Part shown: piece after piece, positions 61,473 to 64,000 of the stretch
Position numbering within the stretch: position 1 is the stretch's first letter
How the letters are laid out: the number at the start of each line of letters is the position of its first letter
Source of the DNA: Oceaniglobus roseus
Lineage (GTDB): Bacteria; Pseudomonadota; Alphaproteobacteria; Rhodobacterales; Rhodobacteraceae
Assembly: GCF_002869745.1 (NCBI RefSeq)
Contig: NZ_PNOS01000015.1
Span: 1 to 64,000 of the forward strand
DNA length: 64,000 nt
Direction of reading: 5' to 3'
Notes under the pieces: generated by a model
Told to the model about the DNA's origin: nothing
The model's database searches: none
Seen by the model: the letters and a program-made list of their open reading frames with translations, nothing else
Program-made: the position numbers and the translations under genes

Positions 61473-62288
61473 TCAGACCTGCAGCACGGAGGAGACGAGA
61501 AGCTGGGTATAGGCGTGCTGCGGATCGTCGAGCACCTGGTCGGTCAGCCCGGACTCCACCACATGGCCGTCCTTCATCACCATCAGCCGGTCGGCCAGCA
61601 GCCGCACCACGGCAAGGTCGTGGGTGACGATGATCGCCGAAAGCCCCATCTCGCGCACCAGCCCGCGCAGGAGGTCCAGAAGCCGCGCCTGCACGCTGAC
61701 GTCGAGGCCGCCGGTGGGTTCGTCCATGAACACCAGCCTCGGACCCGTCACGAGGTTCCGCGCGATCTGGAGCCGCTGTTGCATGCCGCCCGAGAAGGCC
61801 GTGGGCCGGTCGTCGATCCGGTCGGCGGCGATCTCGACCCGGCCCAGCCAGTCCGTCGCCTTCGCCCGGATCCGCCCGTAGTGGCGGGCGTTGACGGCCA
61901 TCAGCCGCTCGCCCACGTTGCCGCCCGCGCTGACGTTCATCCGCAGCCCGTCGCGGGCGTGCTGGTGGACGAAGGCCCAGTCGGTGCGCGAGAGCATCCG
62001 CCGCTCGGACTCGCGCATGGTCAGGGTATCCCGCAGCCCGCCGTCGCGGGTGTCGAACAGGACGGCGCCGCTGTCCGGCGGGACATGTCCGGCAAGGCAG
62101 TTCAGCAGCGTCGACTTTCCCGAGCCGGATTCGCCGACAATGCCCATGACCTCCCCCGGCCAGAGGTCGAAGGAGACATCGGCGCAGCCGATCCGCGCGC
62201 CGTAGCGCTTCGTCACGCCCTCGACCCGGAGGAGGGGCGTCGTCCCGGCCGTCGCTCCGATGGCGGCGTCCATGGCGAGCTCCATCAT
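61473..62288 (-). CDS. phnK: PhnK, carbon-phosphorus lyase ABC-type subunit
   Basis: ABC-ATPase-like protein, about 271 residues, that docks on the PhnGHIJ core. Walker A GESGSGKST, WAFVHQHARDGLRM, signature FSGGMQQRLQIARNL, Walker B LVFMDEPTGGLDVSVQ. Two adjacent ATG codons (62288, 62285); the first overlaps the phnJ stop. An N-terminal extension of about 17 residues precedes the usual start. Confidence 0.94.
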   Translation of the reverse strand: MMELAMDAAIGATAGTTPLLRVEGVTKRYGARIGCADVSFDLWPGEVMGIVGESGSGKSTLLNCLAGHVPPDSGAVLFDTRDGGLRDTLTMRESERRMLSRTDWAFVHQHARDGLRMNVSAGGNVGERLMAVNARHYGRIRAKATDWLGRVEIAADRIDDRPTAFSGGMQQRLQIARNLVTGPRLVFMDEPTGGLDVSVQARLLDLLRGLVREMGLSAIIVTHDLAVVRLLADRLMVMKDGHVVESGLTDQVLDDPQHAYTQLLVSSVLQV

Positions 62289-63154
62289 GCGGCATCCTCC
62301 TCGAAAGGCGCAGCCTCGGCACCCGCGTGGCCTGCCCGGCGGCGTCCGGCGCAGTAATCGGTGTCGGAACACAGAAACATCCGACCGCCCTCGTCATCGA
62401 CGATCAGCTCGTCGAGATAGCTGTCGGTCGCGCCGCAGAGGCCGCAGGCGTGGTCGGCCTTGCTCGCCTCGAAGGGGTGGTCCTCGAAGTCGAGGCTGAC
62501 GACGCGGGTGTGCGGCGGAATGGCGTAGATCCGCTGCTCGCGCCCGGCGCCGAACAGCTGGATCGCCGCCATCTCGAGCTTGGGATTGTCGAACTTCGGG
62601 ATCGGCGAAGGATCCATCACATAGCGCCCCTCGACCTTCACCGGATAGGCATAGGAGGTGGAGATCGCGCCGTGGCGGCTGATGTCCTCGTAGAGCTTCA
62701 CATGCATCAGCCCGTAGTCCTCCAGCGCGTGCATCTTCCGCGTCTCGACCTCGGAGGGTTCGAGGAAGCGCAGGGGCTCGGGGATCGGCACCTGATAGAC
62801 GAGGATCTGGTCGGCGCGCAGGGGCGCCTCGGGGATGCGGTGACGGGTCTGGATCACGCTCGCCTCCGCCGTCGCCTCGGTCACCGCGACCCCGGCGGTG
62901 CGTTCGAAGAAGCGGCGGATCGAGACGGCGTTGGTCGTGTCGTCGGCGCCCTGGTCGATGACCTTCAGCGTATCCTCGGGGACCAGAACCGCGGCCGAGA
63001 CCTGGACCCCGCCGGTGCCCCAGCCATAGGGCATCGGCATCTCTCGGCTGGCGAAGGGCACCTGGTAGCCGGGGATGGCCAGCGCCTTCAGGATCGCGCG
63101 GCGGATCATCCGCTTCGTCTGCTCGTCGAGATAGGCGAAGTTGTACTCGTTCAT
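62285..63154 (-). CDS. phnJ: PhnJ, carbon-phosphorus lyase catalytic subunit
   Basis: Radical SAM enzyme cleaving the C-P bond of ribose 1-methylphosphonate 5-phosphate, 289 residues. The cluster cysteines are Cys237, Cys240 and Cys262 (CGLCGATDSYLDE and LCSDTDYC), with Cys268 as the thiyl-radical residue; the spacing equals that of the E. coli enzyme (241, 244, 266, 272). The glycyl-radical candidate is Gly29 in IPGYQVPF. The DUF559 gene overlaps its start by four bases, so a translated insert lies directly upstream. Confidence 0.96.
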   Translation of the reverse strand: MNEYNFAYLDEQTKRMIRRAILKALAIPGYQVPFASREMPMPYGWGTGGVQVSAAVLVPEDTLKVIDQGADDTTNAVSIRRFFERTAGVAVTEATAEASVIQTRHRIPEAPLRADQILVYQVPIPEPLRFLEPSEVETRKMHALEDYGLMHVKLYEDISRHGAISTSYAYPVKVEGRYVMDPSPIPKFDNPKLEMAAIQLFGAGREQRIYAIPPHTRVVSLDFEDHPFEASKADHACGLCGATDSYLDELIVDDEGGRMFLCSDTDYCAGRRRAGHAGAEAAPFEEDAA

Positions 63155-63474
63155 CCTGCGGTCCTTTCGATCAGCGCGAGGACGCCGGCAAGATCGACCT
63201 CCACCGCGGCGGGGGCGATGCGGAGCGTGCGGATGTCGCGCGCGGCGCGGGCGCGGTCGCGGAACGGGTCGGGCGGACCGTCCTCCACCTCCACGGCAAG
63301 CCGGGCGGCCGGGCAGTAGAACTGCGCGACGCCGTCTCCGAGCGGCACCTGGCGGCGGAACTTCAGCCCGGCAAGGCGGCGGGCCCGCAGGGCCTCCCAG
63401 AGCAGGCGCTCCGCCGGGGTCGGCACCTGGCGGAGGATCCGCGCATGGTGCGTCCGCATCGTGGTCCGGCGCAT
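63151..63474 (-). CDS. DUF559 (Vsr/restriction-like endonuclease fold) protein
   Basis: Small protein, 107 residues. RILRQVPTPAERLLWEALRA, FRRQVPLGDGVAQFYCP and LAVEVEDGP correspond to the DUF559 endonuclease-like domain, where Q/P-G-x-Y-x-V-D normally carries the acidic residues; here the AVEVED Asp/Glu remain. The ATG at 63474 uses the purine-rich edge of a 36-bp repeat as ribosome binding site (GGGAGAGGGGAC). It lies between phnI and phnJ, where no extra gene is normally found, with an inverted repeat pair between it and phnI. Confidence 0.75.
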   Translation of the reverse strand: MRRTTMRTHHARILRQVPTPAERLLWEALRARRLAGLKFRRQVPLGDGVAQFYCPAARLAVEVEDGPPDPFRDRARAARDIRTLRIAPAAVEVDLAGVLALIERTAG

Positions 63475-63479
63475 GGCGT

Positions 63480-63515
63480 CCCCTCTCCCTGACCCTCTCC
63501 CCAGGGGGGAGAGGG
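63480..63515 (-). repeat. 36-bp REP-like element, copy A
   Basis: On the minus strand: CCCTCTCCCC, three bases, GGGGAGAGGG, two bases, AGGG, one base, GAGGGG. A hairpin plus a G-rich tail. Copy B (63592-63627) is the same element in opposite orientation. The copy supplies the ribosome binding site of the DUF559 gene. Confidence 0.8.
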
Positions 63516-63563
63516 CATGTCGCCCGGCGGAAAGCCTTGCGACAAGAGGTGACCGGGTGGTTA

Positions 63564-63579
63564 ACGGACCACGGTCCGT
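63564..63579. repeat. Short palindrome between the two 36-bp elements
   Basis: ACGGACC-AC-GGTCCGT, 7-bp arms, near the centre of the 76-bp spacer between the inverted copies. It would extend a cruciform or stem-loop formed by the pair. Confidence 0.5.
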
Positions 63580-63591
63580 CCGGGCGGGCTT

Positions 63592-63627
63592 CCCTCTCCC
63601 CGACGGGGAGAGGGCCAGGGTGAGGGG
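63592..63627 (+). repeat. 36-bp REP-like element, copy B
   Basis: CCCTCTCCCC-GAC-GGGGAGAGGG, CC, AGGG, T, GAGGGG. It matches the reverse complement of copy A at 30 of 36 positions, all differences lying in the hairpin loop and tail spacers. It sits just after the phnI stop (minus-strand sense). Confidence 0.8.
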
Positions 63628-63638
63628 CTCTCGGGCGC

Positions 63639-64000
63639 TCATTCCGCGGCCTCCCCCGATGCCGAAGACGCCGCCGCGGCCTCCCGGCGCAGCTTGCGGA
63701 TCAGCTCGAGCTCGGACTGGAAATCGACGTAGTGGGGCAGCTTGATGTGCTCGAGGAACCCCGTCGCCTGGATGTTGTCGGAATGGTAGAGTACGAATTC
63801 CTCGTCCTGCGCCGGGGCGCCCACGTCGTCCTCGCCCAGCTCCTTCCAGCGCAGCGCCCGGTCCACCAGCGCCATCGAGATCGCCTTCCGCTCGGTCATC
63901 CCGAAGACCAGGCCATAGCCGCGGGTGAACTGCGGCGGCTCGGTCCGGCTGCCGCGGAACTGGTTCACCGTCTCGCATTCCGTCACCGTGATCTCGCCGA
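63639..64000 (-). CDS. phnI: PhnI, carbon-phosphorus lyase subunit (C-terminal part)
   Basis: The C-terminal 119 residues of PhnI are visible; the rest lies beyond the window. TECETVNQFRGSRTEPPQFT, RGYGLVFGMTERKAISMALV and DFQSELELIRKL are strongly characteristic. PhnI is the nucleosidase that attaches methylphosphonate to ribose within the PhnGHIJ complex. phnG and phnH are expected upstream, outside the window. The C-terminus ends in an Ala-rich tail. Confidence 0.94.
   Translation of the reverse strand, partial: GEITVTECETVNQFRGSRTEPPQFTRGYGLVFGMTERKAISMALVDRALRWKELGEDDVGAPAQDEEFVLYHSDNIQATGFLEHIKLPHYVDFQSELELIRKLRREAAAASSASGEAAE

Follow-up and report, generated by a model that had tools for sequence, protein, structure and literature searches.

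The window analysed here, a stretch of 64,000 nucleotides, carries on its minus strand and in this order phnI, a gene of the DUF559 family and phnJ, identified by profile matches to PF05861, PF04480 and PF06007 (Table 1). The original prediction placed a DUF559 gene and two inverted copies of a hairpin element between phnI and phnJ, and this arrangement is borne out by the profile matches and by the coordinates of the repeats, as is the proposed fusion of the gene's end to phnJ through an ATGA: the DUF559 reading frame opens with the ATG at 63474 and closes with a TGA (63151-63153) that shares two letters with the phnJ ATG (63152-63154). The copy on the phnI side directs its tail away from the DUF559 gene and forms the outer half of an inverted doublet. 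The repeat arms of this doublet span 48 nt each (63480-63527 and 63580-63627), are 81% complementary and are separated by 52 nt. A search with CCCCTCACCCTGNCCCTCTCCCC, allowing up to three mismatches, gave two matches in the window and none in 100 shuffles, so the copies lie far beyond chance. The tail of the inner copy, GAGAGGGG, is purine-rich and lies shortly 5' of the DUF559 ATG, where it can act as a putative ribosome-binding site of that gene. An Rfam search at the insert returned nothing useful, its single match, to an IRES, being below threshold.

Table 1. Features of the phnI-phnJ junction in the window.
Feature	Coordinates	Strand	Remarks
phnI, 3' part	63639..64000	-	PF05861, E 7e-50; ends with TGA, 63639-63641; gene extends past the window
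Element copy A, phnI side	63592..63627	+	hairpin 63592-63614 plus third arm/tail to 63627
Element copy B, gene side	63480..63515	-	hairpin 63493-63515; tail 63480-63492 toward the DUF559 start
DUF559 gene	63151..63474	-	PF04480, 58.9 bits; 107 codons plus stop
ATGA overlap, DUF559 stop / phnJ start	63151..63154	-	read from the sequence
phnJ	62285..63154	-	PF06007, E 8e-144

Each copy in the window has three arms: the first is made of pyrimidines, the second is its purine complement, and the third, again of purines, is a mirror image of the second. Judged by this arrangement of arms, the window repeats are the known BoxC / PIT / TMECO intrastrand-triplex motif. According to the report on this motif (PMC4666352), such repeats were already known from E. 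coli in the 1990s, the E. coli motif folds into a triplex in vitro, and E. coli K-12 has 23 copies, including five inverted pairs. Of the new type of cassette that had been proposed, the repeat itself is therefore not new, and what stands is its association with DUF559 described below.

The exact hairpin (CCCTCTCCCCN{0,8}GGGGAGAGGG) occurs at three places in the 4.4 Mb genome. Two are at the window insert, adjoining the sole PF04480 match of the genome, and the other (C9:17824) lies between two genes that were assigned by eye to tpiA and aroQ. That so rare an element adjoins the genome's single DUF559 gene gave the first indication that the two travel together. Looser hairpin patterns gave 5 and 12 places in this genome, against 1 and 4 for the reversed controls. 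The hairpin pattern detects elements of the CTCTCCC and CCCTCCC types only. In four genomes of the same genus (G390, G423, G447 and G480) the reversed control pattern was itself frequent, with 58, 29, 27 and 17 places versus 0-1 for the forward pattern; since it is the control and not the element that abounds there, a different repeat family, with the shape of the reversed pattern, is present in these four genomes.

The third arm was analysed in 349 readings of hairpins around DUF559 genes, each hairpin being readable on both strands. A mirror third arm (at least 8 of 9 positions) followed the hairpin in 152 readings and preceded it in 25, and among the 285 asymmetric readings the mirror repeat beat the direct repeat in 118 and lost to it in 46. 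An A in the second arm was answered in the third by A (154) or T (116). Third arms faced the DUF559 gene in 102 of the 152 readings and pointed away in 50.

We compared the window with 24 phnI-phnJ junctions from 60 other genomes of the same family. Empty sites were found: 9 of the 24 junctions are tight, with gaps of -4 to +5 nt, and these likewise end in AATGA. The assumption that phnI and phnJ are normally adjacent needs correction: it holds for these nine, and the other 15 junctions hold genes or spacers. A HAD-like phosphatase gene lies between phnI and phnJ in eight (L134-L136, L143, L146, L147, L149 and L150), where L143 was profile-scanned and matches HAD families and the other seven were assigned by eye from similar translations. 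The HAD-like gene of those eight junctions is always joined by ATGA-type overlaps, and in the P. yeei plasmid copy (L163) it is much shortened. Six further junctions have other spacers, of 47-372 nt. The remaining one, in genome G166, has another DUF559 gene, preceded by an inverted doublet that differs in sequence. An insert of the window's type is missing from 23 of the 24 junctions, so that the gene is not common to all relatives; counting our own, DUF559 occupies 2 of 25, and conservation of DUF559 at this position is ruled out.

With a gap of 484 nt, versus -4 in the tightest relatives, the window junction has 488 bp extra. The sequences to the left (GGAATGAGC) and right (AGGATGAAC) of the insert, compared in a check for target-site duplication, are similar, but both are fixed by the stop/start overlap. 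Among the proteins compared, the closest to the window's DUF559 protein are L125 (50% identity) and L131 (47%), and the G166 protein falls outside the top eight. From the sequences, the two DUF559 genes at this junction are possibly separate arrivals at one site; possibly they descend instead from one old, fast-diverging insertion.

In order to analyse the association gene by gene, we used two sets of loci. Set 1 comprised the 69 DUF559 genes (E <= 1e-20) listed for 142 genomes of Alphaproteobacteria, of which two near contig ends were dropped to leave 67. Set 2 comprised 80 named loci from several phyla, which leans to canonical DUF559 genes because they are the top 80 among the 508 relatives of a single query protein; three duplicates of set 1 and seven loci near contig ends were dropped to leave 70. 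Inverted flanks scored above the 99th percentile of arbitrary placements in the same loci for 56/67 (set 1) and 48/70 (set 2) genes, and a triad lay within 200 nt of 63/67 and 68/70 genes versus 61/3623 and 51/3250 arbitrary placements. Since such placements fall mostly in coding DNA, this null is flattering, and we replaced it by the ends of other ORFs of at least 120 codons in the same loci, chosen by a longest-ORF rule. Against this control, triads within 200 nt on both sides were found for 49/67 DUF559 genes versus 0/332 other ORFs in set 1 and for 51/70 versus 1/336 in set 2, although genes from one genome are not independent. For triads on either side the counts were 63/67 versus 20/332 and 68/70 versus 11/336, and for inverted flanks scoring above 15 they were 55/67 versus 2/332 and 44/70 versus 3/336. 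The partnership of repeat and nuclease gene that had been proposed is thus supported at the level of single genes. Four of the 67 and two of the 70 DUF559 genes had no triad within 200 nt, which counts against it. Direct-repeat scores also passed the threshold, at 31 of the 67 loci, because the elements are often clustered.

Several individual loci depart from the common pattern or lie in distinctive places. The inverted flanks of the DUF559 genes L127 and L207 are long (aligned over 102 and 90 nt) and look different from the usual triplex type. In L124, L130 and L131, all from one genome, the flanking element is a variant in which a second hairpin separates the second arm from the third, and the DUF559 proteins are without the usual RFWN motif. 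DUF559 cassettes lie just before carB in L070, L072 and L074, which belong to three different families of genomes, and just before ruvA in L063. From such positions, essential operons seem to be repeated hosts of DUF559 cassettes.

The association was then counted genome by genome, calling a genome hairpin-rich if it held at least 5 hairpins above its reversed-pattern control; the analysis was also run with 10. In the alphaproteobacterial set of 142 genomes, 33 of the 36 with DUF559 were hairpin-rich versus 10 of the 106 others (p 5e-20). Among 299 Pseudomonadota genomes, a set that shares some genomes with the first and is not fully independent of it, the counts were 76/82 with DUF559 and 21/217 without (p 9e-44). 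The window's own genome is tallied as negative, because its DUF559 match is weaker than 1e-20. When the counts were stratified by family (12 informative families), the odds ratio was 229 (p 4e-15). The repeats are therefore associated with DUF559 by genome as well as by gene, as the original prediction required, and also within families.

As a specificity control we used PF01797 (Y1_Tnp), the family with the IS200-type and RAYT transposases. Across the 299 genomes Y1_Tnp had no positive link to the hairpins (37/139 with it versus 60/160 without, odds ratio 0.60, p 0.048), and the link to DUF559 held both where Y1_Tnp was present (29/33 versus 8/106) and where it was absent (47/49 versus 13/111). 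No PF01797 match was found in the window's own genome at E <= 1e-5. The Y1_Tnp control rules out an enzyme of the REP/RAYT type as the partner in this association. Two groups of genomes count against a strict partnership: 6 of the 82 DUF559 genomes are hairpin-poor, and 12 of the 217 negatives have at least 10 excess hairpins. A looser search of those 12 (E <= 0.01) found some DUF559 match in six and none in the other six; the matches comprise a gene split by a stop (G287), a remnant (G437) and four matches in longer frames (E 2e-4 to 1.4e-3), at least three of them weak.

The two elements around a DUF559 gene resemble each other more than they resemble those of other DUF559 genes in the same genome. 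In 17 genomes with at least two usable DUF559 genes, the gene's own downstream end was the strict best partner of its upstream end in 34 of 48 cases, versus 17 expected (permutation p 5e-5). In G036, which has eight DUF559 genes and several variants of the element, the own pair scores best in 7 of 8 rows. The DUF559 loci thus have the matched inverted ends of a transposable element with terminal inverted repeats. Protein similarity and element similarity were compared across 119 loci, those that have both an inward-facing triad and an open reading frame; the correlation is weak (r 0.11, p 0.011), which counts against the partnership and rules out strong co-evolution of protein and element, and the element of the nearest protein was closer than average in 81 of the 119.

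Copies of the element also pair up as doublets. The 36 copies in G038 form 11 neighbour pairs less than 500 nt apart, versus 0.16 expected; in eight pairs the copies are 87-140 nt apart, and the three pairs 295-417 nt apart bracket DUF559 matches. In E. coli, which carries BoxC plus the DUF559 gene ycjD, the element was detected in 5351 of 5426 genomes, with a median of 15 places per genome with any. In K-12 the neighbours of ycjD are sapF and fabI; BoxC occurs downstream of ycjD and, in eroded form, at its 3' end, and no copy was seen upstream of it, which counts against the partnership.

Between ugpB and ugpA, about 306 of 5373 E. coli genomes (those covering at least 80% of the query) carry a BoxC-doublet allele. 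We aligned two doublet alleles (L252 and L258) against two others (L256 and L257), whose palindrome we take to be classical REP. Depending on the E. coli strain, this spot thus holds either a BoxC doublet or REP, as though a single niche were used by palindromes of two unrelated families. A clean empty site for the ugpB-ugpA doublet was not found, both other aligned alleles carrying REP, and this too counts against the partnership.

The match of the window's DUF559 protein, far above the curated cut-off of 20.6 bits, covers only positions 3-64 of the 109 of the profile. Four residues of the family (D49, D62, G63 and H66 in YcjD numbering) are each kept in 67 or 68 of 68 members, and in the window's protein they are replaced by Q, E, D and a gap, which makes it a degenerate member. 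Because these four near-invariant residues are lost, the copy is probably inactive as a nuclease, another point against the partnership. A single-sequence AlphaFold2 model of it was poor (pLDDT 65).

The DUF559 protein of G166 keeps all four residues, and its model, built with 66 relatives, reached a pLDDT of 89.3. The best structural match of this model is 3hrl, a member of the family (Z 15.9), and the nearest fold outside the family is the catalytic domain of I-Bth0305I (Z 12.5, Foldseek E 8.5e-5), followed by Vsr (Z 10.0 and 9.6). Mitochondrial-ribosome and FASTKD4 domains (Z 8.8-10.2) and TnsA (6.8) score as well, so the fold alone proves no function. Intact DUF559 proteins model as a Vsr / I-Bth0305I homing-endonuclease fold, and nuclease activity is predicted for them. 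PMC1189080 had already tied YcjD to Vsr through profile comparison, and the Caulobacter DUF559 protein VsrA is proposed, in PMC12907096, to be a mismatch-repair nuclease able to cause DNA damage.

The explanation that we favour, with a probability of roughly 60%, is that DUF559 proteins are nucleases of the Vsr/homing fold and the predicted mobility partner of BoxC-type elements, the copy in the window being a relic or kept for coupling only. The widespread association suggests that DUF559 nucleases spread the repeats, and from it we infer both this causal direction and the route of dispersal. A full cassette would comprise two matched elements in inverted orientation and, enclosed by them, a DUF559 gene that most of their third arms face, and the shorter inverted doublets would be its non-autonomous form. 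The nuclease would recognise the hairpin or triplex and nick or cut in or beside the element, and repair or strand transfer would then copy the doublet or cassette to a new intergenic site. In the window, a doublet with its DUF559 gene would have been placed in the phnI-phnJ junction, leaving the operon unbroken because the tail of the element may supply a ribosome-binding site and the stop of the gene overlaps the phnJ start. The gene would later have lost its active-site residues, to remain as a relic or to be kept just for translational coupling.

The strongest rival makes the nuclease a caretaker, which resolves or repairs BoxC hairpins or triplexes so that BoxC-rich genomes retain the gene. 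The co-occurrence by genome fits this equally well, and the Vsr-like fold and the role proposed for Caulobacter VsrA (PMC12907096) agree with it; taken alone, it leaves unexplained why the element brackets the nuclease gene and why each gene has a matched pair of ends, and we hold it to be unlikely. The bracketing also bears on the possibility that small DUF559 genes are passengers captured between BoxC elements, which another enzyme spreads and which recombine together. Motif-bearing loci are rearranged more often, according to PMC4666352, and six of the 12 hairpin-rich genomes counted as DUF559-negative lack any match at E <= 0.01, as this would have it; yet hardly any other ORF at these loci is bracketed (0/332 and 1/336), the DUF559 link holds within families, and the obvious alternative enzyme family, Y1_Tnp, is not positively linked, so that capture appears improbable.

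Two readings of narrower reach start from the window itself. Its element tail gives a purine-rich stretch before the start codon, as expected if the elements were a terminator, attenuator or ribosome-binding site of the DUF559 gene and the dispersed copies by-products, but copies stand on both sides of DUF559 genes, dozens to hundreds more lie elsewhere in DUF559 genomes, and PMC4666352 gives no sign that the motif regulates genes in general; we see hardly any chance for a regulatory origin. That the reading frame has stayed open and overlaps phnJ despite changes at four near-invariant residues would suit domestication of the gene within the phosphonate operon, where it would serve to keep phnI and phnJ translationally coupled. 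Junctions of relatives nevertheless tolerate tight contact, HAD-like genes and unrelated spacers, and nothing indicates purifying selection on the window copy, which makes domestication alone very improbable as an explanation.

The mobility reading can be extended beyond the window. DUF559 proteins may supply the missing mobility enzyme for a widespread class of mobile DNA with triplex- or hairpin-forming ends, spreading cassettes with the gene as well as doublets without it; BoxC/PIT/TMECO, from E. coli to Chloroflexota, would be the footprints of this class, which would stand parallel to REP/RAYT but independent of it, and to this wider claim we give an even chance. DUF559 (YcjD) has no settled role, and the link to BoxC gives both partners a function that can be tested in the laboratory. 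That link might also explain the genome instability reported at BoxC repeats, and proof of movement of the element by the nuclease would establish a mobile element of a new class. The element and the DUF559 family are each already known, and their pairing, as read from sequence comparison, appears to be the new part: in the open-licence PMC literature that the search covered, we found no paper joining DUF559, COG2852 or ycjD with BoxC / intrastrand-triplex repeats.

Comparison with known systems places this pairing among several relatives. The BoxC / PIT / TMECO motif of Holder et al. (2015, PMC4666352) has the same pyrimidine arm, purine arm and mirrored third arm, is intergenic and in part forms inverted pairs; that report found no mobility genes near it, whereas here a DUF559 gene is bracketed, and the triplex is here read from the sequence. 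I-Bth0305I shares about 20% identity with DUF559, which stands alone here and has flanking palindromes. The very-short-patch repair endonuclease Vsr has the same fold, and the feature linked to DUF559 here is the BoxC-type repeat. REP/RAYT systems are similar in that palindromic repeats are scattered through the genome, form inverted doublets and flank a gene of nuclease type. A GTAG-type tag beside the hairpin is a feature of REP/RAYT, and it is absent from both elements of the window (63480-63515 and 63592-63627); such a tag appears in the title of PMC3733652. The partner here is predicted to have the Vsr / PD-(D/E)XK fold rather than to be a Y1 HUH tyrosine transposase, and Y1_Tnp genes are without a positive link to these hairpins. 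The resemblance to a REP-element/nuclease partnership that was originally proposed is therefore supported, with a different class of enzyme. Lacking the enzyme and tag of REP/RAYT yet working alike, the DUF559-BoxC system would be a variant of the REP/RAYT kind and, if true, would add an unrelated class of enzyme to that idea.
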